53,036 nt of DNA from Methanosaeta sp. PtaU1.Bin060. Its GTDB lineage: Archaea; Halobacteriota; Methanosarcinia; Methanotrichales; Methanotrichaceae. This document shows positions 2,797-29,370 of the stretch, piece by piece (position 1 is the first letter of the stretch; every line of letters starts with the position of its first letter). A program made the position numbers and the translations under genes. The stretch lies in contig MVRK01000040.1 of NCBI GenBank assembly GCA_002067365.1, positions 1-53,036 of the forward strand, in the 5' to 3' direction. Under the pieces are notes generated by a model, which made no database searches, was not told the DNA's origin, and worked only from the letters and a program-made list of their open reading frames with translations.

Positions 2797-4235
2797 TTAT
2801 TTCTACCACCATATTTTTTATGTATCTCATTACTAGTTACAACTAACCTTCTTTTTCCAGCACAGGTTCTTGTGATTTCATTTACTTTAACTATTTTAAT
2901 CGAATCGAACCAACATGATAGTTTTGTACGTTGTGCTTCAAAAATATTTTTTTCTATCTCATCATCGTATGACGGTCGAGGAATTATATGAAGCTCAACC
3001 TCTCCAGGAGTATTTTGTACGAATTGGAATGTTTCTACGTAGTTCCAAATAAACTTGTCTATCGATACAGATGTAGCAGGATAATAGGATCCATACTTAG
3101 TTATTAAATAATCCTGCAACCGACCATCTAGCTTATCTAGTGTTGGCCACGATAACCCACAATTATCGCATTTGCTAATTTCATCTGAAATTTTGCCATA
3201 ATCTTGTGTGCGATATCTTATTAAAGGCATTGTATTGTTCCAAAATCCAGTACCAACTAATTCAAAGTTACCATTCTCATCCTTAAAATTCTCAGCCAAC
3301 CCATAAAACGGGTGAAAGTGATAGTTTATATGCCCTTTATTATAGCAACCATATCCAAGAAGTACTTGCTCTACAGCACCATAATGGAAAAACACAGGCG
3401 ACTTAAAAACCTCAGAAAAGAGATCGATTTGCCCGGGATATATTTCCTCTGACGCCAAAAAAACTCCTTTCGTTCGAATCTGAATGTCATTGAGTTTCAA
3501 GAATCCGGCCAAAAGCTCCAAACAAGAGGGATACGCATGTACATAATCTGGTTTGAAGTTTTGTATTGCGCTTGCGATATCTGGTAGCAATCTTTCGCTT
3601 AAATGATGTGGAGATACTAATAATCTCTTGCCTATTCTTTTATAAGGTGTTTTATTAAGTGGTGCTACACTGTCAGCACCAATTCTTAATGTCTTGTATC
3701 TTCTATTATACCCATATTTCCCCCACATATGATCAATAAAAGCATAATTTGCTAAAACCTCATCATAATTTCTCCATAGTCCGATTCCGGTACCAGTTGA
3801 TCCACCACTGGTCAAATAAAATAGAAATCGCTTATCTGCTTTAGTTGAAATAAATTTATTTACATTTTCCATAACGGTTTCTTTTGATATAAACGGAAAT
3901 TCTAACAAAAAACTGTATGCGGTATCCGAATCTATTGATTTCGGATTTATCTTTACGTTCTTCTTGTAAAAAGGTACATTTATTAATGCATTTTTAAGGG
4001 TAGCCGAAAGCAATAGGCCTTGAATTTCTTTAGTCTTTTTGTTACATATATCAAAATATGTATCTGATAATAAATATTTTGATATTTTATAATAACTAGG
4101 TGAAAAAAATAGCGCGATAGGGAATAATTCGCACAGAAAACAATAAGATATTTTCATCATATCCTGCAAATTCGAACGAAAATTTGGATGACTTTTCCTC
4201 AAATTAATCATATCCTCGAATGATTCCAATGTCAA
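2793..4235 (-). CDS. Phenylacetate-CoA ligase-like adenylate-forming protein (PaaK/CapK family)
   Basis: A 480-residue member of the ANL adenylate-forming superfamily, of the branch found in capsule loci as CapK and in methanogens as coenzyme F390 synthetase-like proteins. The AMP-binding P-loop YLTSGGSTGTGIGL lies near residues 140-153. A second core motif, PLIRYRTQDYG, lies near residue 340 and is followed by a CDNC pair that could bind metal. Such proteins activate a carboxylate with ATP, so this one may activate an acyl group for glycan modification in concert with the overlapping dehydrogenase. Substrate is unknown. Low GC suggests transfer from elsewhere. Confidence 0.78.
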   Translation of the reverse strand: MTLESFEDMINLRKSHPNFRSNLQDMMKISYCFLCELFPIALFFSPSYYKISKYLLSDTYFDICNKKTKEIQGLLLSATLKNALINVPFYKKNVKINPKSIDSDTAYSFLLEFPFISKETVMENVNKFISTKADKRFLFYLTSGGSTGTGIGLWRNYDEVLANYAFIDHMWGKYGYNRRYKTLRIGADSVAPLNKTPYKRIGKRLLVSPHHLSERLLPDIASAIQNFKPDYVHAYPSCLELLAGFLKLNDIQIRTKGVFLASEEIYPGQIDLFSEVFKSPVFFHYGAVEQVLLGYGCYNKGHINYHFHPFYGLAENFKDENGNFELVGTGFWNNTMPLIRYRTQDYGKISDEISKCDNCGLSWPTLDKLDGRLQDYLITKYGSYYPATSVSIDKFIWNYVETFQFVQNTPGEVELHIIPRPSYDDEIEKNIFEAQRTKLSCWFDSIKIVKVNEITRTCAGKRRLVVTSNEIHKKYGGRNK

Positions 4236-4286
4236 CTTGTCGAGATCGTACGTGCTCGATTACCCAGTTCGGACTTAGAGAACCTG

Positions 4287-5495
4287 TCATGTGGAGTTCG
4301 TATATCGGTATTCATCTCTCAAATGCTCCATTAAGGTTGCCAACGCCAGCATCATCCAAGCTTGGCTCCAGCGCATATAAGGGATTTTATTCGCGATCAA
4401 AGGCCATTTGTGATAATAAAAATAACCTGATCTATCTTGCATATTTGTTATCGTCCATTTGGCAATTTGATTCGCAAAATCTGAATATTGAGGATCTAAT
4501 ACACTGTATTTAGCAAAAGTAATTATCCCCTGTGCTTGATTGTGTATGTCAATAGGGTACTTTGCGGGATATCTATAATAACTCCTACCGTCACGTAAAA
4601 ACATTTTCTCCTTGTAAATGCGGATTCCATTCTCGATGCAAGAAGCTAATTCTGCCTTACTGTCTGCGTATTTCAAATAATCAACAAGTGCATCTAATAT
4701 AAACCCCTGATGAAAATCCAACTGATTCCTAACCCTGCCATCGTCATAAATGCTGTATTTCCAGGAGCCATCATCACCCTGCATCGAGACTAAAAATCGT
4801 GATAATTTTTGGCATATATTTTTTGTTTGTCGGTCCTGATGTAACTTTAATATATAACATCCTGCTTCAAGTCCTTGTGCAGAAGCATTTATTGTTATAC
4901 GATTATCATTTCCCAGTGTATATTTAATGAATATTTTATTTGTTTTAGATTCTATAAATTTGTCTGATAAAAAATTCCATGCATCAAGTGCTGCATTTTT
5001 GGCATGCTCGTCGCCTGTTATCATATATCCTTCGACTAATGCGATTATTGATTGGGACGTTCCAATCACATCTGGAGTACTCGGAGTGAGTCGACTTTTA
5101 TCAACTCCTGTATAAGGGAAATAATGACTAGACCAGCATTCGTATCCATATTTATCCTTCAGAGAGTTGTCGTTTAAAAACGATATCATTTTACATAATT
5201 CGGTGAGATATATTTTGTTCCTGACCGTTTTACACATTTCGGCGTATGCCCGAGCAAAAAGTGCACAGCCTTTAAGATCGATTCCTTTTTGAATTTTTAA
5301 AATTGGACGCATATTTATAGGAGATATTCTACCAATCTGTATCAGCATCATTTCCAAATAGGGATTTCCCATGCACATTTTCGTGGTTATAAGACCATGT
5401 AAAGCATCGTATGGATCCCAGCCATAATAACCTTCTTTTTTGACCCAGTTAAACAAAGAACCCACAGATTTAATAAGATCATTTTCAATCATCAT
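4287..5495 (-). CDS. Alpha/alpha-toroid polysaccharide-locus protein (function unknown)
   Basis: A 402-residue helical protein. It opens with GYYGWDPYDALHG, a signature recurring in polysaccharide-locus proteins often mislabelled delta-aminolevulinic acid dehydratase. Repeated helix pairs rich in Trp, Tyr and small residues (AYAEMCKT, ALDAWNFL, ASAQGLEAGCYIL, HNQAQGIITFAKY) suggest an alpha/alpha6 barrel of the kind seen in glycan lyases, hydrolases and epimerases. Catalytic residues cannot be assigned. The start has GAGGAG close before ATGATG at 5495. It lies 15 bases after the DUF354 gene and 51 bases before the PaaK-like gene, within the leftward operon. Confidence 0.6.
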   Translation of the reverse strand: MMIENDLIKSVGSLFNWVKKEGYYGWDPYDALHGLITTKMCMGNPYLEMMLIQIGRISPINMRPILKIQKGIDLKGCALFARAYAEMCKTVRNKIYLTELCKMISFLNDNSLKDKYGYECWSSHYFPYTGVDKSRLTPSTPDVIGTSQSIIALVEGYMITGDEHAKNAALDAWNFLSDKFIESKTNKIFIKYTLGNDNRITINASAQGLEAGCYILKLHQDRQTKNICQKLSRFLVSMQGDDGSWKYSIYDDGRVRNQLDFHQGFILDALVDYLKYADSKAELASCIENGIRIYKEKMFLRDGRSYYRYPAKYPIDIHNQAQGIITFAKYSVLDPQYSDFANQIAKWTITNMQDRSGYFYYHKWPLIANKIPYMRWSQAWMMLALATLMEHLRDEYRYTNST

Positions 5496-5510
5496 GCTCC
5501 TCAGCTTAGA

Positions 5511-6614
5511 CTATCTAAATCGATTCGAAATTTCTGGGTTGTGCTTTAAAGTGCCTACACATTCAGGGTAGTTCTCTATTATCCAAACCATAAACGCAGT
5601 TATATCAATCTTGTCCCTAAGCAAGCGCTCTCTTTTTTCATTCCACTCTTTTTTCAAGTTGTTCCTTTGTATAAGCTCAATAGCTTTATTTATCACCCTG
5701 TCCGGCTCGCGATAGTTGAATATCATGCCGTAGTTCTTCTCAAGCTCGATAAAGTTTCCCATATCATTAGGTCCAACAAAGTGATTGCGTCGGATCGCTG
5801 GTGTTCCGAGCAATGCAGCCTCAGTCGCCATCGTCTGTGTATCCGTAATAAGCATCTTTGCGTAGTAGATGGCATCATGAATCTTGCTCTTCGGTATTTT
5901 CATAACTCGATCCTTTATTGCATCAGGAACTCCTGCCTCAGAGGATATAAATACTTTGGCATAATTTTCTATTTCCTTTACGAGGAGTACCTTATCTTTG
6001 GCGCTAAACCCATCGATTCCAAGATCATGAACAGCGTCGAAGGCGTTGAACCTGAGCAGCACATACTCCTCATCCTTCTCCAGACTAAGCATCTCTTTTA
6101 TCTTCCAATCGGGCTTGAAATAGTGAGGATGAAGGTACGCTAGCTCCTTGAAACTGTTCACCCGGATCTGCTTTCTACCAAGATCGTCCGTGAAGGTTTC
6201 AGGAGTGATTATTGCGTCAACGAAAGGCATGTATAACCGGAACTGCGTCGCATAGGCGAGATTATTTATCTTTGGCTCTGAGTCCGTAAACTCTATGCAC
6301 CTTGAGCCCAGCAGGACTGAGGTGAATGCATCGTAGACACCAAATCCACTCACCAAATCGGGCTTAAACTTGCGTCGCAGGATATTGTAGGTCTTTAGGA
6401 GTTCCCACGGAAGCAAGATTATCTTTCCAGCCTTGGATGATGATGGGTTTGAATGGATAGCGTACTCGAGCCCAAACTCGTTGGCAACTTCAAGCGTTTC
6501 TCCATAGTTCCGCACGAGTAGCATTACCTGATGTCCATGCTCTTCAAGATTGAGCATTATATTTTTGTAAAAGTGGACTTGCGCAGGAGTATTGGCAAAT
6601 ATCGCTATATTCAT
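5511..6614 (-). CDS. DUF354 family predicted glycosyltransferase
   Basis: A 367-residue protein with the archaeal DUF354 signature: an MNIAIFANTPAQVHFYKN start, VMLLVRNYGET near residue 35, GFGVYDAFTSVLLG in the first half, and the second-half donor-site-like run TDTQTMATEAALLGTPAIR. The fold is GT-B like and related to WecB/MurG-type enzymes, so sugar transfer is likely although the reaction is uncharacterised. It follows wecB by 44 bases and would be co-transcribed with it. GC content is intermediate between the AT-rich distal genes and the rest of the window. Confidence 0.82.
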   Translation of the reverse strand: MNIAIFANTPAQVHFYKNIMLNLEEHGHQVMLLVRNYGETLEVANEFGLEYAIHSNPSSSKAGKIILLPWELLKTYNILRRKFKPDLVSGFGVYDAFTSVLLGSRCIEFTDSEPKINNLAYATQFRLYMPFVDAIITPETFTDDLGRKQIRVNSFKELAYLHPHYFKPDWKIKEMLSLEKDEEYVLLRFNAFDAVHDLGIDGFSAKDKVLLVKEIENYAKVFISSEAGVPDAIKDRVMKIPKSKIHDAIYYAKMLITDTQTMATEAALLGTPAIRRNHFVGPNDMGNFIELEKNYGMIFNYREPDRVINKAIELIQRNNLKKEWNEKRERLLRDKIDITAFMVWIIENYPECVGTLKHNPEISNRFR

Positions 6615-6658
6615 GCAATCATCCGATCAATTGTATCAACTGACCCCATTGGCACAAA

Positions 6659-7723
6659 TCAGGGAAAAAGTTTCATTTGTTCGCAGATAACCTCACCTAT
6701 ACTTTCACATGCCCTACCGTCCCCGAAAATATCAGCCCGATCTCCTTTGGGATTAAAGTCGTTTATCGCATTAAGGATCTTCCCTCTGTTGGATCCGACA
6801 AGAACATTCCACCCGGCATTAACAGTCTCTATCCATTCTGTCGTTTCCCTCATCGTGATGCAGGGCTTTCCAAGAATATATGCTTCCTTCTGAACCCCCC
6901 CAGAGTCTGTCAATATCTTCTCTGCACCAGTCATTAAGGAGATCATACTCAGATAGCCTACTGGATTAATTATTTTTAGATTCCCGTTGATACTTTCTAT
7001 AAGTTCATTGGACCCCATCTTTCTTTTTGTCCTTGGGTGCAACGGAAGTATTATCGACCTATTCGAATCTCTAAGGGCCCGAATGATCCTAGAAAGCCGT
7101 TGCATATCATCTGTATTCTCTGCTCGGTGAATGGTAGCGACAAGATATTTCTCTCCTGTATCCGCCATAATCTCGGGTCGGTTTGTCTTTTGCTTTGCAA
7201 TCTTAAGGGCATCGCACATCACATCTCCTACTAAATAGGTACCCTTCGTAATCCCTTCTTTTTTCATGTTTCCCATTGCAGTCTCTGTTGGTGCAAAGAG
7301 CAGATCAGATATATGATCTGTAACCACGCGGTTTATCTCCTCTGGCATTCTTCTATCGTAAGAACGCAGACCCGCCTCGACGTGCCCCACTTTAATATGA
7401 AGCTTTGCCGCAACCAGTGCTCCAGCCAGCGTTGAGTTTGTATCTCCGTAGACAAGAACAAGGTCTGGACACTCCCTGACGATCACCTCTTCAACCCGTT
7501 CCATGATCCTTCCTGTTTGGGCCCCGTGTGTAGATGAACCAACTCCGAGATTATAGTCCGGCTCTGGTATGCTCAATTCTTCGAAAAATATCCTGCTCAT
7601 CTCATAATCATAGTGCTGTCCCGTGTGGACTAGGATCTCAACATGCTTCTTGCGCAACTCACTGGATAGGGCAAAAGCCTTAATGAACTGAGGCCTTGCT
7701 CCAACTATGCTTAATATTCTCAT
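6659..7723 (-). CDS. wecB: UDP-N-acetylglucosamine 2-epimerase (non-hydrolysing)
   Basis: A 354-residue WecB homologue that interconverts UDP-GlcNAc and UDP-ManNAc for envelope polysaccharide or N-glycan precursors. Family blocks are clear: GARPQFIK at the N-terminus, VYGDTNSTLAGA near residue 91, HVEAGLRSYDRRMPEEINR, LHPRTKRK, and the C-terminal UDP site DSGGVQKEAYILGKPCITMR followed by TEW. It is the first gene of the leftward cluster, with a TATA box at 7751-7760 and a leader of only a few bases. WecC, the usual partner that oxidises UDP-ManNAc, is not next to it. Confidence 0.93.
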   Translation of the reverse strand: MRILSIVGARPQFIKAFALSSELRKKHVEILVHTGQHYDYEMSRIFFEELSIPEPDYNLGVGSSTHGAQTGRIMERVEEVIVRECPDLVLVYGDTNSTLAGALVAAKLHIKVGHVEAGLRSYDRRMPEEINRVVTDHISDLLFAPTETAMGNMKKEGITKGTYLVGDVMCDALKIAKQKTNRPEIMADTGEKYLVATIHRAENTDDMQRLSRIIRALRDSNRSIILPLHPRTKRKMGSNELIESINGNLKIINPVGYLSMISLMTGAEKILTDSGGVQKEAYILGKPCITMRETTEWIETVNAGWNVLVGSNRGKILNAINDFNPKGDRADIFGDGRACESIGEVICEQMKLFP

Positions 7724-7750
7724 CTTTGGGTCGCCTGTAAGTTCAATCTG

Positions 7751-7760
7751 ATATTTTTAT
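7751..7760 (-). promoter_or_regulatory. TATA box for the wecB-led operon
   Basis: On the minus strand the sequence ATAAAAATAT is centred about 33 bases before the wecB ATG. Transcription would start near 7730, leaving a very short leader. Confidence 0.45.
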
Positions 7761-7979
7761 GATCAATTTGATTCAGGCATGGAGTATGAGGAACCACATA
7801 GCCCTTGATCCGACTTTGAATCATTAAAATGTGCAGTAAGGCGGTTTCATTTTTTTATCAATCGCTTTCGAACCACTTTCATACATAGATGCCCCTTTTC
7901 CAATCCACTTCATTCACACTACCAGATCACCGGGCCATCTTAGTTATCTCTGGCCAAGTTCCAAACACGATTGTGATAC

Positions 7980-8894
7980 TCATGCATTATGGCTTCCTTT
8001 TTCTCTATCCGTTTTCATCCTTGACTCTGCAATTAGCTGGGAAAAGCTGTGCAGAATTATCCCTGTGAGTGCCATGAAGGACCCTATCAGCGTAAGCAAA
8101 ATCATGAGGAGCGCGGGCCCGTAATGCAGGCTTCCTCCATGAAAGAAAATCCTCAGAAACTCCAATCCCATCCCGATCCCAACTGCTGACATTATGACTC
8201 CAGGAACTGTGAAGTAGTAAAGCGGCCGTCTCAGCTCCATATCATGCAGCACCTTCACTAATATCCGCACTCCGTGAGCTACCGGATTCTCAGTCGAGCC
8301 TTCCACATCATACCGGACGCCGATCGGCACCTCCTTGATGCGAAGCCCCGCCTCTGCGGCATCTGCCAGCATCTCGCTCTCGATGGCAAGACCATTTTGT
8401 CCGAACCGAAAGACGTTCTTCGTCCTGGCAGCAAAGGCTCTAAACCCACTCTGGCTGTCTGTTACATTGAGCCCGCAGTCCAAGTTAGTGGCAGAATCCA
8501 GCACCTTTTGGCCAAGACGGCGGTAGAGGGGCGTATTTTTCCCATTGCCATTAAGATACCGGCTGCCATTCACCATATCAGCCTCTCCCTTCAGGATTGG
8601 CTCAACTAGCTTAGGAATATCCCCCGGATCATGCTGACCATCGGTGTCTATGGTTACTATTACATTCGTCCCGTTCAGCAACTCGAAGCCCGTTTTAAGC
8701 GCTGCCCCCTTTCCCTTGTTCTGGGGGTGTCGCAGAACCTCCGCTCCCGCCATCTGTGCCACCTCTGCCGTGTGATCGCTGCTGCCATCGTCAACTACTA
8801 TCACACGATCTGCATAGAGCTTGGTCCTCAGCACCATACTTCCAATGGCCACCTCCTCATTGAAAGCAGGCAAAATGGCCGTGATTTCGTTCAG
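7980..8894 (-). CDS. Family 2 glycosyltransferase with C-terminal membrane segments; probable CTG start
   Basis: A DPM1-like GT2 enzyme that probably loads a sugar onto a polyprenyl phosphate at the inner membrane face. Motifs are PAFNEEVAIG, VVDDGSSDHT, the metal-binding DTDGQHDPGDI, ADMVNGSRYL and QSGFRAF, then two hydrophobic segments near the C-terminus. The only ordinary in-frame start is TTG at 8873, which would remove the first beta-strand (ITAIL) and has no ribosome site. Seven codons upstream a CTG at 8892-8894 follows GGAGGG (8901-8906) by six bases and restores NEITAILPAFNEE. The frame is closed by TAA at 8925-8927. I therefore start it at CTG. It is transcribed separately from wecB, 256 bases downstream. 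Confidence 0.85.
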   Translation of the reverse strand: MNEITAILPAFNEEVAIGSMVLRTKLYADRVIVVDDGSSDHTAEVAQMAGAEVLRHPQNKGKGAALKTGFELLNGTNVIVTIDTDGQHDPGDIPKLVEPILKGEADMVNGSRYLNGNGKNTPLYRRLGQKVLDSATNLDCGLNVTDSQSGFRAFAARTKNVFRFGQNGLAIESEMLADAAEAGLRIKEVPIGVRYDVEGSTENPVAHGVRILVKVLHDMELRRPLYYFTVPGVIMSAVGIGMGLEFLRIFFHGGSLHYGPALLMILLTLIGSFMALTGIILHSFSQLIAESRMKTDREKGSHNA

Positions 8895-11334: not shown

Positions 11335-13404
11335 TCAGATGTACATGGCAGGTCTCCCATTCACTATGGCCGATTGCAGATCCTCGACGCGATCGCTTAT
11401 GCCCACCCATTCTTTGGACGGATTGGGAATGATTATGGCCGTCAGATTCATCCGGAAGTACCTGTCCATCAGCTTATCCAGGTCGTAGAGCCCCGAAAGA
11501 TAATCATTCAGATAGTTCTCATCTGCCCTCAGGAGCACCATCTTCGAGTCCTCCTTCAGCTCTGGAAATTCTGTGGTGTAGTGAGCCAGTGGATAGGATA
11601 TATTATAGGCGACAAGCAAGATCAGGAATAGCACTATGATGGCCGAAAAGCTCTCTTTGCGCAAGCGCACCACTATGGCCAGGGCGACGGCCATCATGAG
11701 AAGAAGCGGCAACGTCTTATCAAGCATCTCAGCGCATGATACATACTCGACCATGGCAAGAAAGATCTGCAGATGCTCCCCCACCCCAATTACTCCATTA
11801 TTGAACTGGGTGCTGTCTGTGAAAAGCACCGCCTTTCCCTTTCCATATCCCACTGCCGCCCAAACCAGATGCCTTCCGAAGAGGCCGTTCAGCTTCACCT
11901 CATCCGGGAAATCCCTCGTCAGGAAGAAGGCTGAGGTCTCATTGCGGTAGTCCGCAAAGTAGCTCGGCCACGTCTCTATCTCGAAGAGGGGCTTTGCCCC
12001 ATCAAGCCTCTCCAGGCTCGTGCTCGTCTCCCACAGGAGGTCCCCTGTCATGTAGCGGGCCATGAACTGGGGCATCTCTCCAATCCGAGTGAGAGACCCC
12101 CTGGAGTCGGTGTAGACGTCCTGCACCCCCGTGGCAAGGTACCTGTACCCCAATCTTTCTGCTATGGGATTGATGTTCGTGGCCATGCCGTATATGTCCG
12201 TGTGCTCCCCGATCAGGATCAGGCCGTTGCCCTGAGCCACGAATTTCATGATCGCCTCGACCTCCCTCTCGCTGTAGGGGCTCGTGATGCACTTCAGCAC
12301 AAGAACGGCCTTTCGCCCCTGAGAGATCTTCTCCAGTAAAGAGAGATCTATCTCCTTTGCCTCTACATAGCCAACATAGCTCAGATCCGGCCTCTTATCT
12401 GGCCTATCGCCTATCAGGGTGATGTTGTAGATGCGTGAGATTATGTTCATCAGGCCGAAGTAGTTGTTTGAGCCGCTCACGGCATCCTTCGCGTTGGTCT
12501 GCAGATAATCCGTCCACGTCGGCTCCCAGACGCTGTGTGTCTCGTCTATTATGATGATCGGATCGGCCCTCGTCGCTAGGGGAGTGAAATAGACGACTGC
12601 GAGCATGAGGAAGGCCATGAGAAGTGGCAGGGCCCTCATCCATCTCTTGGATGAATAGCCCCCGCCTGTTTGCCTAATCGTCGCTTCCGGCAGGGAGAAG
12701 CAAAGCAGGAGGACGCATGCCAGCGGGAGCAAGAGCGCCTGGAGATTATCAGGGATGAATGTGGCAATGCGAGGGACATACAGAAGGCTCTGGAGGCTGA
12801 GGATCAGGAAGAGAAAGGGGATGGCCAGTGCTGCTAATGCCGACCACAATTTAGCCCTTCTCTCGGCCCTCACGATGAGAATAAGGGCGATCGCGGCAAG
12901 TGACAGAGATACATAGAATGGCAGGAGAACCTTGACATCATCGAGAAGTATGGGCCGAAGAGCTCGGGTATGGTAGAGAATAAGGTATCCTGTCTCGCTC
13001 AGGCCGTAGTGCAGATGCAGAAGCGAGGATAAGCCTGATAAGACAGCCCTGAATCCCCCGAGGACCAGATCAGGCTGCAGGAATCGAAGGGCGATGAGGC
13101 CTATGAGGGGGGAAATGAAGACCTCAATCTTCGCTTTGATGGCCAATAGGGCTGCAACCAAGAGGAGGACGACAGGAAGATAGGCTTTGTCCGCAGGATA
13201 TATCGAAAAGAATCCAGTGGCTGCTGCTGCCAGGAGCACCTGCATCTTGCCAGGGCGATGATCCCTGAAGGCGACGAGGAGCAGAAGCAGGGATGAGAGC
13301 ATCAGAAGGAAGCCGGAGTATTCCCAGAGGTCGAAGGGCACTATGTAGCTTCCGAGCAGGAAGAGCCCCGTGGCCAGCCATGCGATCCTGGACTCAAATT
13401 CCAT
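11335..13404 (-). CDS. Multi-pass membrane protein with DUF4350/GATase-like extracytoplasmic domain
   Basis: A 689-residue protein. About eight hydrophobic segments fill residues 5-275. A large soluble domain (about 283-550) follows, then two more hydrophobic segments and an 85-residue tail. The soluble part opens with IIIIDETHSVWEPT and contains the loop GEHTDIYGMATNINPIAERLG (residues 399 on), a strand-Gly-rich-loop pattern typical of DUF4350 or class-I GATase-like folds. The same loop occurs in the adjacent gene, so the two are paralogues. No Cys-His catalytic pair is evident, so it may bind rather than cleave. Its ATG overlaps the upstream gene by 11 bases. Role unknown. Confidence 0.72.
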   Translation of the reverse strand: MEFESRIAWLATGLFLLGSYIVPFDLWEYSGFLLMLSSLLLLLVAFRDHRPGKMQVLLAAAATGFFSIYPADKAYLPVVLLLVAALLAIKAKIEVFISPLIGLIALRFLQPDLVLGGFRAVLSGLSSLLHLHYGLSETGYLILYHTRALRPILLDDVKVLLPFYVSLSLAAIALILIVRAERRAKLWSALAALAIPFLFLILSLQSLLYVPRIATFIPDNLQALLLPLACVLLLCFSLPEATIRQTGGGYSSKRWMRALPLLMAFLMLAVVYFTPLATRADPIIIIDETHSVWEPTWTDYLQTNAKDAVSGSNNYFGLMNIISRIYNITLIGDRPDKRPDLSYVGYVEAKEIDLSLLEKISQGRKAVLVLKCITSPYSEREVEAIMKFVAQGNGLILIGEHTDIYGMATNINPIAERLGYRYLATGVQDVYTDSRGSLTRIGEMPQFMARYMTGDLLWETSTSLERLDGAKPLFEIETWPSYFADYRNETSAFFLTRDFPDEVKLNGLFGRHLVWAAVGYGKGKAVLFTDSTQFNNGVIGVGEHLQIFLAMVEYVSCAEMLDKTLPLLLMMAVALAIVVRLRKESFSAIIVLFLILLVAYNISYPLAHYTTEFPELKEDSKMVLLRADENYLNDYLSGLYDLDKLMDRYFRMNLTAIIIPNPSKEWVGISDRVEDLQSAIVNGRPAMYI

Positions 13405-15481
13405 TCTGTTCCCGCCCCCCCAATGAGATGAACAGGCGCTCTATAAGCCTCTTCAAGCCTTCGTCGGGATATCTGAAGACCGGCTCGTATTCAACTATGT
13501 TTCTGAATATGGTGTGATCTGCTATGACGATCAGCCTTCCGCGACCGATGTTCTCGCTGGCCATCACAGGAGTGAGGTTGTAATAGGCGAGTGGATCGCC
13601 GCCCGAGATCCCCTCTGCCGAGTACATGGTGATCTCATTGATCCCCTTCGTCAGGGAGGCATTCGCGGGTCTGACACGAATCGTCGTCTCTCTCATGTAC
13701 GGGAGCTTGAATCCCCAGGTTGTGTTGTTCTGGTAGCTGATCTCACCCAGGGGTGCCCCCTCAAGATGCATCCCAAAGTCTTGGAGGAGCGAGTTGGCGG
13801 CATCATTTGTCTGGGCCGCGGCCGTGTCTGTATGGTAGCCGTCAAAGAGAATCAGAGTGCCTCCGCTCTCTACATAGTCCCTCAGCTGCTCCATCTCCTG
13901 CTCGTCAAAAGCCTTTGTCGGCCCCATGGTGACATAAGCCCTGTACTCGCGGAGGTCCTCAGGCACCTGCTCCACCAGAAGGGGATTGAAACCGTAATGC
14001 TGAGCAAATATAGCTAAGAACACATTCTTGTATTGGTGGGGCGCGCCGTAGCCCTCGATGTTGGCGTGACCGATATCAAGAGCTATCTTGTTGGCAGGAT
14101 CCTGATTTACGGGGATCATCGCCTCGACCTGAACTAAAAGGAGCACCAAAATGACGGCTGCGATGAAGGGCTTCAAGGCTGCAAGGCCCGCCCTTGATAA
14201 TCCAAAGAGGATCAGGATCGCCAGCAGGGCCCTCAGAAAATCGCTTCGGAGGATGCTGTTCTCTTGATTGAGGTAATGAATAACCCTTGCCAGGAAGCCA
14301 TAGTTGTAGAGAAGATCGGGGCCGCTAATGCTGTCTGTGTTGGCTATGGCGATCACCCTCCCCCGCCCAAAGTTGGCACCGGCGCAGATGGGCAGGACGC
14401 CGTATCTGTCCCCCTTGCCCGGCACGATATCACCCATGTAGACGTGATTTGAGGCTGCCCAATCCCCCACGTCACCCCAGGTGGTGTACTTCAGGGAATA
14501 GAAGATCAGGTTATCCGATCTATTGACCTCCAAAGTCGCGCCTGCAGTCTCTTCTGTTGAGTCGAATCCCATGATGCTCGGGAAATGAGGCTCCCAGAGC
14601 ATACTGTAGTCGAAGTTGAGGTGCAAGCCAAAACGGTGCAGCAGAGGATTGAGGTTCAGATAACACTCATAGATGTTCGTGTGGTCCCCCAGAAGGAACA
14701 ACCCTCCGCCATTATTGACGAAATCGGTTATGGCTGCTATTTCAGCTGATGTGTACCCCTTCTCGGGAGTCTCGATGATCAGGATGCTAATTCCTCTCAG
14801 GGCCTCGGGGGTGATGGTCTCATTCAGCAGCCTTGACTTGTATCCGATGGCGTCCAGGTACCTCAAGAAGGTGTGCGTGAGAGTGTCGTTCTGAAAGAAG
14901 GGAGATTCGATATTATGGTGAAATGCGTCATAAGCTATGTTCCCGCTCTTCTCGGAAGCCAGTGGATCCACAGGAGACATGCTTATCAGCAGAAGGACGA
15001 GGGAGAGATAGAGCAAGCCCTTGATGAGGGGCTTGACATTGGCCTGAGCGGCTTCCAACAGGTCGTAGCGAGCTGCGACCAGGGTGAAGATGATGGTGCA
15101 TAGCAGGACGATCCTGGAGTCGATCGCCAGCCCCAGGCCCTCGGCCAGGGCAAAAGGCGATAGTATGAAGATGGTCTTCAAAAGCGCCTCGTTCCTGTAG
15201 AGACAAAAGGCAAACGCCAGCAGAAAAAGGATATAGGGCAGAGCAGGGCGCATGAAAAACAGCATGAAGAATAGAGGGATGCCGAGGACCCTGGCGCTCT
15301 CGAACCTCGGCCACGAGAAATAGATGATGAGAAGGAGACCTCCCACAAGATCGACTATCAACAGAGGGGTCGTGAGATGAAAGAGGCCATGGACCATTCC
15401 AGCCTCCCATGCTAGAAATACGAGCAGTATAAGATAGGGGGTGCAATCCCTCAATCGCGCGGGTCTCTCGCCTCTGCTCAT
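13394..15481 (-). CDS. Multi-pass membrane protein with two DUF4350/GATase-like domains
   Basis: A 695-residue protein. Hydrophobic segments occupy about residues 15-170. A first soluble domain (about 180-400) carries FVNNGGGLFLLGDHTNIY, with Gly265-Asp266-His267-Thr268. Two membrane segments follow near 405-455. A second soluble domain (about 465-690) carries the related loop YVESGGTLILFDGYHTD. The tandem layout suggests internal duplication. It is paralogous to the next gene, which it overlaps by 11 bases. The operon context with a secreted anchored protein and a Cys-repeat protein suggests a surface assembly or processing role, but this is inference. Confidence 0.72.
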   Translation of the reverse strand: MSRGERPARLRDCTPYLILLVFLAWEAGMVHGLFHLTTPLLIVDLVGGLLLIIYFSWPRFESARVLGIPLFFMLFFMRPALPYILFLLAFAFCLYRNEALLKTIFILSPFALAEGLGLAIDSRIVLLCTIIFTLVAARYDLLEAAQANVKPLIKGLLYLSLVLLLISMSPVDPLASEKSGNIAYDAFHHNIESPFFQNDTLTHTFLRYLDAIGYKSRLLNETITPEALRGISILIIETPEKGYTSAEIAAITDFVNNGGGLFLLGDHTNIYECYLNLNPLLHRFGLHLNFDYSMLWEPHFPSIMGFDSTEETAGATLEVNRSDNLIFYSLKYTTWGDVGDWAASNHVYMGDIVPGKGDRYGVLPICAGANFGRGRVIAIANTDSISGPDLLYNYGFLARVIHYLNQENSILRSDFLRALLAILILFGLSRAGLAALKPFIAAVILVLLLVQVEAMIPVNQDPANKIALDIGHANIEGYGAPHQYKNVFLAIFAQHYGFNPLLVEQVPEDLREYRAYVTMGPTKAFDEQEMEQLRDYVESGGTLILFDGYHTDTAAAQTNDAANSLLQDFGMHLEGAPLGEISYQNNTTWGFKLPYMRETTIRVRPANASLTKGINEITMYSAEGISGGDPLAYYNLTPVMASENIGRGRLIVIADHTIFRNIVEYEPVFRYPDEGLKRLIERLFISLGGREQNGI

Positions 15482-15502: not shown

Positions 15503-16240
15503 CTAGATATGCCCTTTGATACTGGTCAGAAGCGCCGGAAGCCTCTTTCTGTAGCCCAGCAGCAATGCAGCCGCAATCAGCACCGCAACCCCCAGCAGGA
15601 TCTTGTAGAGATTGTCGTTCAGGTACATCTGTGCATTATAGTAGTTGAAGTTCGCCCTGAAGACCACCTCTGTCTGGTTGCCGGTATTATTCGTCCGCCA
15701 GATAAGCGAATCCCTTCCCTGGACCCTCTCCCTCTGGAATGGCTCGCTCTCATTTCCTTTGGTGACCACAGAGGTTCCAATCCTTGCTCCTTCGGGTGGC
15801 ACAACTACTATCGCTGCCGCCTGAGGTTCACCCACATCTACGCTTGTGTAAAGGGTGTTTCTATCTCCAACCCTCTGGAGGAGCCCATTCCATGTGAAGC
15901 TCAGGTTGAACTGATACGGCCTGTCTATCATATGGCCCGCCAGAAGCAGGGATACTGTCCGCGCGCTCTCGGCCTCGTTCACATCTGCATCCAGGATCTG
16001 TCCAAGGGAGTCCTCCGCCTGGTAGTCTTTGGTCGATCCCCCTCTGAATGAGAAGGTGTAGATGAAGCTGGGCTCTTTGGGGATGATCGTCGTGGACCAA
16101 GTGCATCTGACGCTCCCATCATCGAGCACATCATAGATGTAGCCGTGATCTACCGGCTCAAAGGCGGTCTTCTCGGCGCTTGCAGAGATGAGCAAAGCTA
16201 GAGGTACCAAAAATAGGAAAAAAATATATTTTTTTGTCAT
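15503..16240 (-). CDS. Secreted, C-terminally membrane-anchored protein (unknown)
   Basis: A 245-residue protein with a signal peptide (residues 1-22, ending at ISASA), a beta-rich ectodomain of about 185 residues with several N-glycosylation sequons, a membrane segment near 213-231 (ILLGVAVLIAAALLLGY), and a short basic cytoplasmic tail. This type I topology would hold the ectodomain outside the cell. It lies 22 bases from each neighbour in a four-gene leftward operon, between the Cys-hexad protein and the DUF4350-like pair. I recognise no catalytic motif. Confidence 0.68.
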   Translation of the reverse strand: MTKKYIFFLFLVPLALLISASAEKTAFEPVDHGYIYDVLDDGSVRCTWSTTIIPKEPSFIYTFSFRGGSTKDYQAEDSLGQILDADVNEAESARTVSLLLAGHMIDRPYQFNLSFTWNGLLQRVGDRNTLYTSVDVGEPQAAAIVVVPPEGARIGTSVVTKGNESEPFQRERVQGRDSLIWRTNNTGNQTEVVFRANFNYYNAQMYLNDNLYKILLGVAVLIAAALLLGYRKRLPALLTSIKGHI

Positions 16241-16262: not shown

Positions 16263-16964
16263 CTAGCTAGCGCTGGTTGGAGGCTTGAGCTCGAATTGCA
16301 GAGTATTCTGGCACTGACAAGCTAGTCCCTGGCAAGTCGCCCCAGTTGCACATGCTGTGCCGGTGATGCATCCAGCTCCTGTTATGCAGTCGGATGCCGT
16401 TGTGCATTCTGCTTTCGTGGGGCAATTAGTGCCTGTGGCACATGTGCTGCCTGTCGCACATGTCGACCTCGTCGGGCAGTCTGCGCCTGTGATGCATGTG
16501 CTGCCGGTTATGCATGTCGACCTCGTCAGACAACCCGCACCTGTGATGCATGTGCTGCCGGTTATGCATGTCGTTCCAGTGGGGCAATTAGTGCCTGTGG
16601 AGCATGTGCTGCCGGTCACGCATTTCGAGCCGGTAGGACAGGTGGTGCCAGTGATGCATGTTCCACCAGTTACCCCACAACTTGAACCAGTGGGGCAATT
16701 AGCGCCTGTGATGCATGTGCTGCCTGTCGCACATGTCGACCTCGTAGGACAGTCCGCGCCCGTGATGCATGTGCTGCCTGTCGCACATGTCGCGCGTGTA
16801 GGACAGTCCGCGCCTGTGATGCATTTGCTGCCTGTTGCACATGTCGCGCGTGTAGGACACGTTGCGCCAGTAGGATGGTTGGAAGTAGTAACAGAAACTG
16901 CGGAAGCATTAGCAATTAATCCAAGGAGAATGATCAAGCACAGGGCCCATTTTAAACCTCTCAT
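16263..16964 (-). CDS. Secreted cysteine-hexad repeat protein (putative disulfide-laddered solenoid)
   Basis: A 233-residue protein with a signal peptide (residues 1-22), then 29 consecutive hexads from Cys36 to about residue 210. The consensus is Cys-(Ile/Pro/Ala)-Thr-(Gly/Arg)-(Ala/Ser)-X; the single exception is one seven-residue unit (CGVTGGT). It ends with CQGLACQCQ and a short polar tail. Cys every six residues and Thr two after each Cys predict a flat two-sided coil with a disulfide or Cys ladder. A perfect GGAGG lies seven bases before the ATG and a TATA box near 17020. It is first in the four-gene operon. I know no named family for it. Confidence 0.72.
   Translation of the reverse strand: MRGLKWALCLIILLGLIANASAVSVTTSNHPTGATCPTRATCATGSKCITGADCPTRATCATGSTCITGADCPTRSTCATGSTCITGANCPTGSSCGVTGGTCITGTTCPTGSKCVTGSTCSTGTNCPTGTTCITGSTCITGAGCLTRSTCITGSTCITGADCPTRSTCATGSTCATGTNCPTKAECTTASDCITGAGCITGTACATGATCQGLACQCQNTLQFELKPPTSAS
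16300..16866 (-). repeat. 18-bp tandem coding repeats
   Basis: The DNA behind the Cys hexads is an 18-bp periodic array with larger near-copies, for example blocks built on TGCATGTGCTGCC and GCACATGTCG motifs. Repetition of this kind can expand or contract by slippage, so the hexad number may vary between strains. Confidence 0.65.
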
Positions 16965-17101
16965 CTTCCCTCCTTTTTCAATTTTATTACTGTGTTTGCT
17001 TTTCTCCTAACCTCTATAAAGACTTAACGAGTCATCAGACGCAAGATATTAGTAAGAGCAAGGCCCTAATAGGTTCCCGCAATCGATAAAGAGATGTCAT
17101 C

Positions 17102-18556
17102 ATGGCGGCCATCAAGGTTCGTAAGAGATGCAAAGATTTCAGAATTTGCGGCTTGTGTCCGGCATGGATGACCTGTTTCATTCTTCTAGCTTTTATCGGC
17201 GTCTCCTTCGCATCGGATGAGCCCCAGTCATCCTTCAGCGGCCTTTACAAATCAGATGCCATCGATCTCGACAAGGATGGTCTTTATGACAGCATGGATG
17301 TGGCTGTCGGCGCAAATGCGGTAGCCTCAGGATATTATGAGGTCACAGGCGACCTTCAGGATCAGAATGGCAGCGAGACTCATCTCGCCAGTAACAGGAC
17401 GTACCTGACCTTAGGTGCCGACACCCTGATCTTAAGATTTTATGGCCTATGCCATCCAGGCGCATTCTATCTCAGGAATCTGACCCTTCGCGACGATTCG
17501 GGCAGAATCCTGGAGCACCTCGATGAGGCTTATACCACCCCAAAATATACGATCCTCGATCCAATACCGGAGATCGCTAAGCTGACAGGAGATTATAAGG
17601 ATCATGCAACCGACGCGAATGGCGACGGCAGATATGAGGACCTGACCATTGACGTGGAGGTCTATCTGTTCAGTCCGGGCCAGTACACATTGACCGGCTA
17701 CCTGTACGACCAGAATGGCTCAGATGTGGCTTGGTCTATAGATAGTCGCGACCTGGATGCAGGAGAGACTTTGATGCACCTGAGGTTCGATGGGGGCACC
17801 ATAAGGGAACATGAGGCGAACGGGCCCTATCGTCTGGGGAACCTATTCCTGTCCGGCAGGAACTGGACCATAGACGAGTTCGCCAGGAATGCCTATAACA
17901 CCTCCGCGTACAAATTCGTCGATTTCGCTGAGCCTTTGCGGCCAATGTATGAGAAGTACATCTCAGGAGTGGGAAAGGGCGAGCTGGCCCTGACTGTGAT
18001 CATAAAGCAGAAGGTTCCAGTGCGATCGGGAGCCTTCAGCTTCGATATATCTGGCATCAACATCCCTCCAATCTCCACGCCCCTGGCTGTGAAGAGCTCG
18101 AAACTGGGCTACAGCTACAACCTGACGGGCATATATATGCCCAGCAAGCCGAACAACTTCACTGTGACTGCCAGCAGCGTGAAGAACCTGAATATAGGCC
18201 TGAAGAAGCTCCAGGGAAGCTATGAGAATTCGAGCATGATCTGGAAAGGCAAGTATACCAGGATCTGGATAACGACCCAGGCGGAGGCTGACAAGAATGG
18301 GACTGCCACCGCAATGAGCGATTTATTGTCTCCCGGCAATTACGACGCCAAGATCTTCGGCGACGCTGCCAAAAACACGTCAGAGGTCGATCTGACTATG
18401 AGACTGGAGAAGAAGTTGATGATAGATGGGAGGTTCAGTCTGGCCATAAATACCAGCGGCTTTCCTGCGGGAGACTACGCGATGATCGCGAGGGCATTGA
18501 ATGGATCTTTCTGCATGGATGAGATGGCTGTAGAGGGGCTGTCGATGGAAGACTAG
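17102..18556 (+). CDS. Secreted protein with duplicated calcium-loop domain and a shared C-terminal beta domain
   Basis: A 484-residue exported protein with an N-terminal basic region and hydrophobic signal segment ending near residue 38. Two homologous domains of about 110 residues follow. Each begins with an acidic EF-hand-like loop (DLDKDGLYD; DANGDGRYED) and contains DQNGS and a conserved LRF block, so calcium binding is likely. The C-terminal third (PNNFTVTASSVKNLN, PGNYDAKIFGDA, INTSGFPAGDY) matches part of the 21512 protein, showing a shared module. Several Asn-X-Ser/Thr sites are present. It is divergent from the Cys-hexad operon and followed by a terminator-like hairpin. Function unknown. 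Confidence 0.72.
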   Translation: MAAIKVRKRCKDFRICGLCPAWMTCFILLAFIGVSFASDEPQSSFSGLYKSDAIDLDKDGLYDSMDVAVGANAVASGYYEVTGDLQDQNGSETHLASNRTYLTLGADTLILRFYGLCHPGAFYLRNLTLRDDSGRILEHLDEAYTTPKYTILDPIPEIAKLTGDYKDHATDANGDGRYEDLTIDVEVYLFSPGQYTLTGYLYDQNGSDVAWSIDSRDLDAGETLMHLRFDGGTIREHEANGPYRLGNLFLSGRNWTIDEFARNAYNTSAYKFVDFAEPLRPMYEKYISGVGKGELALTVIIKQKVPVRSGAFSFDISGINIPPISTPLAVKSSKLGYSYNLTGIYMPSKPNNFTVTASSVKNLNIGLKKLQGSYENSSMIWKGKYTRIWITTQAEADKNGTATAMSDLLSPGNYDAKIFGDAAKNTSEVDLTMRLEKKLMIDGRFSLAINTSGFPAGDYAMIARALNGSFCMDEMAVEGLSMED

Positions 18557-19127: not shown

Positions 19128-19488
19128 ACAAGTCAGCCGTGATCTGGTTGACCGATTTGGCCTGATAGCCTTTGAAGATCTGAATATCAAAGGCATGATG
19201 CATAACCACTGCCTGGCAAAATCTATCTCAGATGTTGCATGGAATATGCTGGTGAACATAACATCGTACAAGGCTGCAAGTGCTGGTTCGATGGTAGTCC
19301 TGGTAGATCCAAGGAATACGTCTAAGATGTGCTCAAGGTGTGGTATCCTGGTTGAAAAAGATTTGTCCGATAGAACCCATAACTGTTCTCAGTGTGGCCT
19401 CTCCTTGGATAGAGACTGGAACGCAGCAATAAACATATTGAGATTGGGAACACAATCTCTGCAAAACGCTAGAAGCTCCGCCCTTTAG
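19128..19488 (+). pseudogene. tnpB: tnpB remnant (RNA-guided nuclease of IS200/IS605), C-terminal part
   Basis: The frame reads SRDLVDRFGLIAFEDLNIKG, then continues through MMHNHCLAKSISDVAW to a zinc ribbon with CSRCG and CSQCG and the RuvC-III block DRDWNAAINIL. This is the C-terminal third of a TnpB protein. Upstream the frame is closed by TAA just before 19128, and the N-terminal two thirds, including the first RuvC Asp region, are gone. An ATG at 19195 could give a 97-residue fragment, but it would lack nuclease competence. The stop TAG lies inside the right-end hairpin, as is usual for complete elements. Confidence 0.85.
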
Positions 19489-25428: not shown

Positions 25429-28400
25429 TTAGCCCAGGGCCCCAGCAGTGAGATTTTCCATCACAGACTCCTCCCACAAATCCAGCTCTGGCTCCATGGT
25501 CAGTATCGATTCAGATGTGCTCAGGTCCCAGTCCGGCGGCTCCCAATCTCCATACCTGTAGGTCCTTGGCACATTGCCTGTCCCTGTGACCTCGATATAC
25601 GCCGCAGCCTCGGCCTTATTGAGGCTCTCTCCATTGATGGCTGCTGCATCCATGTGGACGATATTGGTGTAGCCACCATCTCTTGAGGCCTTCGTGGTGT
25701 AATCTATGGTCTTGGACAGGCCTGGCATTATCTCTGGCAGGACCCAGATCATCTGGCCGCTGCTATCTATGTTGGGGTCAATAGATGCATCGAGCAGCGT
25801 CATGCCACCCGGCAATTGATCCGTCACCCTCGCGGCCACGATCTCCGACGCTTCGTTGAGGATTGCAATGCGGTAGTGGACCACAGTCGAATCAACATCA
25901 TCCAGCCAGGCCTTCTTCGAGAGCAGGGCCTTGGGCGGACAGCATGTCAGCCAGCTGAACTCGATAACCGAGTAGTTCTCTGCACACGCAGTGCCATTCT
26001 CATAATTTCCGCATGCTTGAACGCGGTTCACCACGTCTCCTTGGGCAAACTCGGTGATATTCAGCGTGAGGCCTATGGTCATCTTATCGCCAATGCCAAG
26101 GTGCTGCACAGTCCACTCGGCCCCAGAAGGATTGAGCACAACTGGCCTCATCGTCGATCTGACATACTCCGTGCCTGGCGGGAATATGTCTCTCACGCGA
26201 ATGGGAGCAAGGGCGCGGTTTCCATCGTTGATTATGCTTATCTTGTACTCTGCCAGGGCTGCATCAGTGCCATTGTACCATTCTGTCTTTGTCTCTCCCT
26301 CCTTGATCAGGGTCAGATGGGGCGTATCGTATCTTGATGTGCCTGTCAGGAGCACATGCCTCTTGATGCCATAGCTGCCCGAGTAGTGCTCCTCCTCGTC
26401 TATGCCATCAGTGTTGTTATCGCCGTGACGTACCACCCTGTAGTCTGCCTGGCCGTTGAAGAGCGCTTCCGTCATCATCTCGTTTAGGCCGCTGGCAGTG
26501 GTCTCTTTTTGCAGGCTATCGAGATATGAATACCTCTCGCTGATCAGGGTTCCGGGTGTGATGCCGTCGCCAAGACAGCTGGAGGCGACCGGCTGGCGGC
26601 AGTTCATGCAGCCTGCGATGTCGACTCCCCCAGCCAGGCCGCCGCTCTTCGACCACATGCCCTCGCTCCATTTCAGGGACTGATTGGCCAGGAAGCTCGG
26701 GGAGTAGGCATAGCTCGTTGGCTCATGAATCAGGCTTATATTCTTGGCCATATAGCTTGACGAGGTCTCGACCATCTCCTCGCTATGGTAGGAGCCCGTC
26801 CCCGATTCATAGGAACGCTGGCTTCCTTTGATTCTTGCATCCACAGCAGCATAGCCTGATCCAGTGGTCGATCTGTTGGAGATGACGCTCGTCCCGTATT
26901 CATCGACATATTCATAGACCTTGAAGCTGCCCGCGTACTCTTCTTGGGCTTCGTAAGCAGGCTTGGATCTGGCAGCGGCATCCGGTTCCGCCTTCTTTAA
27001 GATGCCTATATGGCCAATGCCCTCAAACTCCACCTCGGATTTCATGGTAGAGCCATTCCGATCGAGCTCAGTAGATCCATTCCTCTCGATCTTTGAGGCG
27101 GAGGTGTACTCCTCAGTCATTGTGGTCCCTGTAGCCTCGTTTCTTCCCCTGAATTTTTCTGTCCATTTGGTGCCATAATCGATGAAGCGGCCATTGGGCA
27201 AAGAGAAGGTCGTGGGTTTGTGGACAGCCGAAAGGCTTGTGGCGATCTTGATGGACTTGTTCTCTGTGCGCATCTTGGAGATCTCTTCGCTGGCATATAC
27301 GCCGCTTCCGGACTCGCGCTTCATCAATTCAGTTCCCGGATCCTCGATATGCGTAAACGCACAGTTCGATATGGTCTCAGTGAAATCAGCCCGTGCATAG
27401 GCGCAGTTCCTGACTGATTCATCTCTGGGGGAGGTATCATAGTTGCTATATACGTTTACGAATCCTTCTCCCTGTACCCTCTGAGTCATATCGTAATAGA
27501 TATCAATTTTCTTGACGCGAACAGCCAGGTCCACCACAAATCGCTGCCCTGGAGCCAGCCTGCCTATGTGCCAGTAGAGGCTCGAATCAGGCTCGGGATT
27601 GACGCGAACCTGCTCAACAGAGTCTGGCAGGACATCCCACAGGGTTACATTTGTCAGGGGAAGAGGGCCGTCATTGGAGACTTCGATGGTATAGATTATC
27701 TCTTGGCCCCGTTTAGCTGATGTGTTCAGCGTGGTCTTGGCAAGCCTCAGGCCCTTTAGCATCTTTGTATCCACGAATCTGACTGTCGCACTCTCTCCGT
27801 CTTTCAGATGGACCACCAATCCATTTGGCACGACGTCGCTGCTGGCTCCCTTGCATTCGACTGATTCGAGGGACCAGCCAGATGGCACATCTTCGAGGAT
27901 TTCGTAGTCCTGGGCCTGCAGGTTCTCAAAGATGGCGCGATCGGATGGCGTCCCGTCATCCATCAGCGAGAAGTCCCCCAGGGTGCCCGTGAAGGCGAAG
28001 GCCTGGCTGCCATCTGGAATCGCATCCTTGATCACAATGATGGAATTTGCCTTGCGGTTGCCGAAATTTTGGATGACATCGCCGCCCGCCAAGTCTATCT
28101 CAGCCTTGCCCTCGGCGGGACAGGCCGGGGTCCAGCCTGACTGAAGCGTCTCCTCGATGGTGTATTTTCCCGCTGAGACATACCTGAAAATGTAGTTGCC
28201 ATCCTCATCAGTCGTCGTAGAGGCCACTATCTTGCCTGAAGCATTCTTCAGTGTGATGGCCCAGCCCGGAAGCATCTGCTCGCCTTGGTCGAGCCTGCAG
28301 TTGCCGTTGGCGTCATTCCACATGTAGCCCGTAATGTTGTTTCCCAGAAGCCTCGTGTTTGTGAAGGTGATCACAGGAGATTCACCGGGCTCGGGCGTTA

Positions 28401-29370
28401 TGGTGATCGAGTTTCCTGCGGTAGAGGCGGCATTGGTTCCTGTAACTTCAATGCTCTGCTCCCAGCCATCTAGTTGGGCCTCTGCTATCGTATATGGTAT
28501 CTCGGGGGTGAGGTTTGATTCAGACCTGCTCTGGCCATTCATCAGCTTGAATGATTCCAGGGCACTCCCTGGCTCGAATCCCGTTCCTGTGAAGTTGAAG
28601 ACCGCGTCTGCGCCGACTGTCCTCTTGACAACAGTGATCGAACTCAATTTCTTGTCGATGAAGGTGATCACCGGGGACTCGCCTGAGAGATGCTCGATGG
28701 TTATAGAGTCTCCTGATATCTGGTAGTTTTCCGGATCAGCTCCATTAACTTCAATGCCATCGAGGACCCAGCCAGGTGGTACGTGCTCGGTTATGGAGTA
28801 TGTTCCGGGATTCAGATTGGGGACGAAGATGGTGTACCTGTTGGTGGGGCTCAGGCTGAAGGATTTCATGCCGCTGAATTCTGAGAAGCCCGTACCTGTG
28901 AAGGCAAATGTGCCATCGCCGCCCAATGGCCTCTTGAGCACAGCGATTCCGGCGAGCGGCCGCACTATGATCTTGAGAGTCGCCATGTCCATGCATGACG
29001 CTAATTTCTTATTGCGCACGACCACGGAGATGGTGACCTCTGTGGGAAGATCAACGTCTGGAGCCGTCAAGACGAATGTGTTCTTGTCGATCTTCGTAGG
29101 ATCATAGCAGCATGGCTTACTCTCGTCATCGCAGCAGGGAGTTGCATCCCAGGAGTATTCCCAGTTTTCATTATAGGGCGTGCTGAATGTATACTGCAGT
29201 CCTGAATAGTAATTTATCGCGCCCGCAGCAGGATACAAGAGGAGCATTATGCAGGGCAGCAAGAGAGTCAGAGTCCGGGAGACGCGAGCCGGAACCTGCC
29301 TGGCTTTCGCTCTTGCGAGGGGCCTCTTTGGCCGAAGATACTTTGCCGATCCTGCATGCTTTTCAGACAT
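25429..29370 (-). CDS. Giant surface protein with CnaB/SdrD-B-like and DUF11 domains
   Basis: A 1313-residue exported protein with a long basic N-region and hydrophobic signal near residues 33-50. A Cys-rich segment follows. Next come three CnaB/SpaA-like domains (about 140-240, 244-340, 443-536) and one SdrD B-like domain (344-440, WNDANGNCRLDQGE). Candidate isopeptide residues are Lys146/Glu195/Asp239, Lys249/Glu297/Asn338 and Lys448/Glu493/Asp534. Then come a DUF11 domain (about 541-640), a long Ser/Thr/Glu-rich middle, and two further DUF11-like domains near the C-terminus. There is no C-terminal membrane anchor or sortase motif. It lies 37 bases after the 809-residue gene. It is likely an adhesin, sheath or matrix component. 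Confidence 0.82.
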   Translation of the reverse strand: MSEKHAGSAKYLRPKRPLARAKARQVPARVSRTLTLLLPCIMLLLYPAAGAINYYSGLQYTFSTPYNENWEYSWDATPCCDDESKPCCYDPTKIDKNTFVLTAPDVDLPTEVTISVVVRNKKLASCMDMATLKIIVRPLAGIAVLKRPLGGDGTFAFTGTGFSEFSGMKSFSLSPTNRYTIFVPNLNPGTYSITEHVPPGWVLDGIEVNGADPENYQISGDSITIEHLSGESPVITFIDKKLSSITVVKRTVGADAVFNFTGTGFEPGSALESFKLMNGQSRSESNLTPEIPYTIAEAQLDGWEQSIEVTGTNAASTAGNSITITPEPGESPVITFTNTRLLGNNITGYMWNDANGNCRLDQGEQMLPGWAITLKNASGKIVASTTTDEDGNYIFRYVSAGKYTIEETLQSGWTPACPAEGKAEIDLAGGDVIQNFGNRKANSIIVIKDAIPDGSQAFAFTGTLGDFSLMDDGTPSDRAIFENLQAQDYEILEDVPSGWSLESVECKGASSDVVPNGLVVHLKDGESATVRFVDTKMLKGLRLAKTTLNTSAKRGQEIIYTIEVSNDGPLPLTNVTLWDVLPDSVEQVRVNPEPDSSLYWHIGRLAPGQRFVVDLAVRVKKIDIYYDMTQRVQGEGFVNVYSNYDTSPRDESVRNCAYARADFTETISNCAFTHIEDPGTELMKRESGSGVYASEEISKMRTENKSIKIATSLSAVHKPTTFSLPNGRFIDYGTKWTEKFRGRNEATGTTMTEEYTSASKIERNGSTELDRNGSTMKSEVEFEGIGHIGILKKAEPDAAARSKPAYEAQEEYAGSFKVYEYVDEYGTSVISNRSTTGSGYAAVDARIKGSQRSYESGTGSYHSEEMVETSSSYMAKNISLIHEPTSYAYSPSFLANQSLKWSEGMWSKSGGLAGGVDIAGCMNCRQPVASSCLGDGITPGTLISERYSYLDSLQKETTASGLNEMMTEALFNGQADYRVVRHGDNNTDGIDEEEHYSGSYGIKRHVLLTGTSRYDTPHLTLIKEGETKTEWYNGTDAALAEYKISIINDGNRALAPIRVRDIFPPGTEYVRSTMRPVVLNPSGAEWTVQHLGIGDKMTIGLTLNITEFAQGDVVNRVQACGNYENGTACAENYSVIEFSWLTCCPPKALLSKKAWLDDVDSTVVHYRIAILNEASEIVAARVTDQLPGGMTLLDASIDPNIDSSGQMIWVLPEIMPGLSKTIDYTTKASRDGGYTNIVHMDAAAINGESLNKAEAAAYIEVTGTGNVPRTYRYGDWEPPDWDLSTSESILTMEPELDLWEESVMENLTAGALG

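Follow-up and report, generated by a model that had tools for sequence, protein, structure and literature searches.

A candidate rod-like surface protein made of cysteine hexads, and its linked envelope proteins, in two genera of Methanotrichaceae

A gene of Methanosaeta sp. PtaU1.Bin060 codes for a protein, predicted to be secreted, in which cysteine returns every sixth residue in a strict register that is under selection. It belongs to a family of seven hexad genes in two genera of the Methanotrichaceae, and is linked to genes for three envelope proteins that share its sparse distribution. We propose that it is a structural surface protein, whose hexads would build a beta-solenoid rod working with these three proteins; we see this reading as evenly poised between being right and being wrong.

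The gene and its cysteine register

By the window we mean the whole stretch of DNA that was analysed, 53,036 nucleotides long. The initial annotation had given the open reading frame exactly the coordinates listed here; it lies on the minus strand, among features that are numbered by their position in the window.

16263..16964, minus strand: hexad-repeat protein gene, CxT(G/R)xx repeats (233 aa, 233 codons)
16899..16964, minus strand: predicted signal peptide, residues 1-22 (read from the sequence, cleavage after ASA placed by eye)
16662..16859, minus strand: first array, residues 36-101, 11 Cys in six-residue register, the last unit opening the seven-residue step
16335..16658, minus strand: second array, residues 103-210, 18 hexads, insertion-free
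16263..16334, minus strand: C-terminal tail CQGLACQCQNTLQFELKPPTSAS and stop, resembling the tail of the Ch14 orthologue
16965..17040, minus strand: upstream region with GGAGG ribosome-binding site and TATA-like CTTTATAG (the latter identified by eye)
15503..16240, minus strand: 245-aa envelope protein with signal peptide and C-terminal TM segment, 22 bp 3' of the hexad gene
13394..15481, minus strand: 695-aa polytopic membrane protein, GldG/DUF4350/ABC_transp_aux-like domains
11335..13404, minus strand: 689-aa polytopic membrane protein, weakly DUF4350-like
17102..18556, plus strand: 484-aa secreted protein with DUF4785-like domain, divergent neighbour of the hexad gene

The signal peptide, MRGLKWALCLIILLGLIANASA, with a hydrophobic segment that spans residues 7-25, agrees with the extracellular location assigned at the outset, and we count secretion, as predicted from this peptide, among the demonstrated points. 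GGAGG stands directly 5' of the ATG. Cysteine makes up 15% of the mature protein: there are 33 residues in total, 32 beyond the signal peptide and 30 in one array chain, where 11 and then 19 of them, each set in strict six-residue register, are joined at CGVTGGTC. The spacing comprises 28 six-residue steps and a single step of seven (28 of 29 are sixes), hence the 29 hexads with a one-residue insertion described initially are 28 hexads and one heptad, and the count matches. When the mature protein was shuffled at constant composition, the longest six-spaced cysteine chain in 20,000 trials was 7, against 19 observed. Threonine occupies C+2 in all 28 hexads of the unit C-x-T-(G/R)-x-x, while C+3 (position 4) is Arg or Lys in six of them. 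The protein is rich in Ser, Thr, Gly and Pro, with few aromatic residues, and close cysteine pairs are nearly absent (one CxC).

The codons tell that this frame is the one that matters. Across the 28 hexads, the entropy at codon positions 1 and 2 is zero for both Cys and Thr, and at position 3 it is 0.97 bits for Cys and 1.84 bits for Thr; within the 18-hexad stretch, 41% of the codon differences between repeats are synonymous, against 3-30% in the other five frames. Because Cys and Thr vary only at the third base, and because synonymous differences are commonest here, selection must act on the protein that this frame encodes: the six-residue register is real and strict. An antisense frame (16357-17010, plus strand) is open too, its start falling inside the array, and comparable antisense frames are open in the paralogues of the related genome described below, because of the repeat. 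One might still imagine the out-of-frame translation of a DNA minisatellite that has no role as a protein, as 18-bp minisatellites elsewhere often give cysteine-hexad frames (among the matches listed in our motif scans), but the signal peptide and ribosome-binding site, the constraint visible at the codon level, and the seven genes that keep the same frame in two genera leave this idea with hardly any credence. A real protein, as the initial annotation had it, is what codon-level constraint, signal peptide and homologues in the same frame all argue for.

Relatives in a second genus

Besides the single hexad gene of the window's own genome, six are present in 'Methanotrichaceae archaeon Ch14' (taken to be genome G035), a member of another genus, whose contig JABLXE010000012.1 carries a hexad gene; JABLXE01 is the name of a GTDB genus of the family (PMC10652976). 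The Ch14 genes, on contigs C4, C5, C7, C22, C24 and C27, each begin with a hydrophobic N-terminus and use the unit C-x-T-(G/S)-x-x, with a longest uninterrupted run of 58. This run belongs to C24, where 59 six-residue cysteine steps include 58 hexads without any indel; the array (L017:4592-6649) is followed by about 260 C-terminal residues for which the PDB, at E up to 1, gave no match. In the C5 paralogue (L016:6833-7837) residue 212 is followed by a TGA that interrupts the frame, and the hexads resume in frame beyond. Extra cysteines occur at positions 4, 5 and 6 in the Ch14 paralogues, adjacent Cys-Cys included. The tails of the window protein and of its Ch14 orthologue have the motif Q-x-E-L-x-P-x-T in common. 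In the orthologue there are three steps of seven residues; two of them (CAATTST, CGATSSN) are similar in form to the CGVTGGT of the window protein, and this step may be a tolerated bulge. In the pooled set of 273 hexads, position 3 is Thr or Ser in 95% and position 4 Gly or Ser in 72%, positions 2, 5 and 6 being more variable.

To judge from the libraries that we searched, the family seems not to have been described. Among 50 genomes of the Methanotrichaceae, relatives were limited to the window's genome and Ch14, and 25 other genomes of the window's genus lack the gene; sweeps of 238 genomes of the class and 393 of the phylum returned chance matches only. In scans of genome and viral collections, the matches listed, the Ch14 contig aside, looked on inspection like minisatellite frames or repeats of another kind, and they speak neither for nor against relatives elsewhere. 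We rejected G040 as a chance match after looking at its raw sequence, and G438 and G503 because their hexads come from reading, in antisense, the Lys-rich repeats of genes without relation to ours. Homologues that keep the cysteine spacing singled out by the initial annotation do exist, namely the six Ch14 paralogues.

Linkage with three envelope proteins

The hexad gene appears to head an operon: 22 bp separate it from the gene of the 245-aa protein, 21 bp lie between the latter and the 695-aa gene, and this one overlaps the 689-aa gene. The 245-aa protein is found in two of the 50 family genomes and the 695-aa protein in two of the 393 phylum genomes (E up to 1e-30), the window's genome and Ch14 in both cases; the 689-aa protein occurs in three of the 238 class genomes, that is, these two and a remote match of 25% identity. 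A plasmid search with the 695-aa protein gave no match. In Ch14 the three genes, in the same order, precede the C5 hexad gene by about 390 bp, and the identities between the two genomes are 61% (245-aa), 60% (695-aa) and 54% (689-aa). Hexad gene and module are linked, and sparsely distributed together, in two genera. Since the genes are linked, this co-distribution counts as one observation rather than several independent ones, and it could reflect a single block inherited together, which speaks against a partnership. So does the order of neighbours, which differs between the window, with the hexad gene at the operon start, and Ch14, with the hexad gene past the module. Moreover, as the 25 other genomes of the genus do without the gene, the cell surface functions without the hexad protein.

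On the other side of the gene, the best match of the 484-aa secreted protein is the divergent neighbour of the Ch14 C4 hexad gene, and its family is widespread in genomes without hexad genes. About 0.6 kb from it, a 97-aa frame (19195-19488, plus strand) matches a Cas12f1-like TNB domain and is probably the remnant of a TnpB-type transposon. On the Ch14 contig that carries the C4 hexad gene, and a few kb away from it, lies a gene of thioredoxin fold whose motif is CPHC (L108:4775-5263). The window also holds a sugar/glycan gene cluster (574-8873, minus strand) with glycosyltransferases, a UDP-GlcNAc 2-epimerase and an octopine-dehydrogenase-like gene; two large surface proteins of 1313 and 809 aa (25429-31837, minus strand) with SpaA and SdrD-like domains, the former also with DUF11 and the latter with five 267-bp tandem repeats; a secreted 151-aa protein (45636-46091, plus strand) built from 27-aa units in tandem (APQGCQCDKPAMGPDGKQVPPMMNGKP and the like) that contain cysteine, with no Pfam match; and a 614-aa NosD/right-handed beta-helix protein (49149-50993, plus strand).

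Which fold would hexads adopt?

Here we infer a fold, an orientation of side chains, a structural role and a partnership. The unit C-x-T-(G/S)-x-x would fold as a beta-solenoid rod in which one hexad makes one face, with the side chains of Cys and Thr pointing inward and the variable Ser, Gly, Asp, Thr or Pro outward, and the three downstream envelope proteins would plausibly anchor or assemble the rod at the archaeal cell surface. That the hexad is a structural face is suggested by the conserved register, by its two fixed positions (Cys 1, Thr/Ser 3) and by recent duplications, which span multiples of six residues, with lags of 3 hexads in the window array, 5 in that of C4, 4 in that of C7 and 2 in that of C27. 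Weak matches in the structure database, obtained from sequence only, include several solenoids of the hexapeptide type, namely LpxD, eIF2B epsilon, perosamine N-acetyltransferase and a UDP-GlcNAc acyltransferase, as well as the antifreeze helix of Tenebrio; all matches are below significance (best E 0.015), with composition bias in common, unrelated enzymes turn up beside these solenoids, and they point only weakly towards a solenoid. AlphaFold models are of low confidence (mean pLDDT 41.5 with a two-row alignment, 39.9 with a six-row alignment). In favour of the solenoid put forward by the initial annotation stands the conservation of the register, and against it that neither model is confident.

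Two architectures remain, a three-faced helix of the hexapeptide kind, with an 18-residue turn, and a two-faced helix of 12 residues. Six window hexads that have Arg or Lys at position 4, and the invariant residue at C+2, speak for the first; for the second speaks a cysteine spacing identical to that of the beetle (Tenebrio, Dendroides) antifreeze proteins, right-handed beta-helices of consensus TCTxSxNCxxAx. The likeness goes further, as both are secreted (here by prediction), made of tandem repeats and rich in Thr and Ser. A profile built from the window protein and the Ch14 orthologue follows 1EZG for 82 residues without a gap, most cysteines on cysteines, so that the identity of spacing first pointed out holds, though only at E = 0.015. 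A beta-helix of the Tenebrio type, with 12-residue coils whose two cysteines are joined by a disulfide, might also profit from the mostly small position 4 (Gly/Ser), which could face inward like Ser5 and Ala11 of the beetle fold (PMC8038014). Yet the conserved Thr sits at C+2, whereas the small inward residue of the beetle proteins is at C+3, where Arg or Lys recurs here; the ice-binding TCT occurs 0 times in the window protein, as the first description of its flanks had it, and the 12-residue consensus TCTxSxxCxxAx 0 times in all hexad proteins. Nor is there a clear alternation of two hexad types: an even-lag preference over all arrays, which would bear on coil size, loses significance once the visibly duplicated ones are removed. 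The hexad protein differs further in being archaeal and of a putative fold, and we hold this precise architecture to be improbable.

The left-handed hexapeptide beta-helix of LpxA/LpxD-type acyltransferases offers a six-residue unit, and, as we read the weak LpxD and eIF2B alignments, the hexad falls into the hexapeptide register, with T where LIV would point inward, G beside it and C where the small inward residue would be. The strict tandem motif [LIV]-[GAED]-x-x-[STAV]-x is never found three times in a row (0 occurrences), but a version with T and C substituted does occur. Pfam, at E up to 1, gives no hexapeptide family, PDB matches to hexapeptide-helix proteins have E >= 0.067, and, unlike these acyltransferases, the hexad protein has no enzyme domain or significant match. 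A core with Thr instead of Ile, Val or Leu would be out of the ordinary in such a helix, which counts against the solenoid. As it lacks a defining motif of each, we file the hexad protein under neither beetle antifreeze proteins nor hexapeptide helices. Collagen-like proteins (Scl/Lcl adhesins, collagen-like tail fibres of phages) give biased matches due to a repetitive xTG composition (Pfam collagen scores 13 bits, with a cut-off of 27.2), but glycine is not at every third place, every second Gly place being Cys here, and we rejected this identity. Finally, the archaeal sheath amyloids (Methanospirillum SH, Methanothrix MspA) are likewise secreted proteins of the surface, from methanogens that are related or of similar ecology, and disulfides are proposed to be important in sheaths; SH has two cysteines per monomer (PMC10593813) against 32 beyond the signal peptide in the hexad protein.

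Thiols and disulfides

A disulfide ladder, as the initial annotation had it, would require oxidation outside the cell. We found no match to DsbB or VKOR in the window's genome, Ch14 and ten other family genomes, where search controls were positive, and DsbD-type proteins, of the reducing side, in all 12. Together with the low-confidence models, this leaves the ladder unsupported, and the absence of DsbB and VKOR is compatible with other oxidants or with spontaneous oxidation; in sheathed Methanotrichales, a thiol-exchange protein called DbsB was reported in 2024 (PMC11576556). The redox-active filament envisaged at the same time is not supported.

What, then, could the thiols do? They might, in a flexible cysteine-rich matrix with no fixed fold, tie surface layers by intermolecular bonds, regularly spaced along the chain. 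Models of low confidence and a composition dominated by Ser, Thr, Gly and Pro would fit such a cross-linker, and disulfides have been proposed to link the beta-rings of the Methanospirillum sheath (PMC10593813). Yet a linker has no need of an exact six-residue spacing kept over up to 58 units, nor of a nearly invariant Thr at C+2, and it too would have to do without DsbB and VKOR, so that we take it as unlikely, while giving it real weight. Rows of reduced thiols could instead hold soft metals or sulfur species at the surface: the cysteine content of the mature protein, the extra and adjacent cysteines of the Ch14 paralogues and the balance of DsbD-type over oxidizing proteins, compatible with thiols kept reduced outside the cell, would suit this role. 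The close cysteine pairs typical of metallothioneins are, however, what the window protein nearly lacks, and among the genes of the operon we identified none for the handling of metals, which makes metal or sulfide binding distinctly unlikely. A more daring variant, which we consider very unlikely, has a solenoid core of only Thr and Cys, where stacked cysteines would form rails of reduced thiols, about 4.8 angstroms apart, holding metal ions or passing electrons.

A surface module of the Methanotrichaceae

The hexad protein probably represents a novel type of surface protein, shaped like a rod. If its fold is as outlined, prokaryotes would have in it a solenoid with a cysteine at every face, reached independently of the beetle antifreeze proteins and in an anaerobe in which DsbB and VKOR were not found. 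One would then have to ask how a strict anaerobe copes with some 30 extracellular thiols per molecule. The finding would also add an apparently undescribed surface module, made of a repeat protein and three envelope proteins, to the Methanotrichaceae, the family that includes the methanogen Methanothrix.
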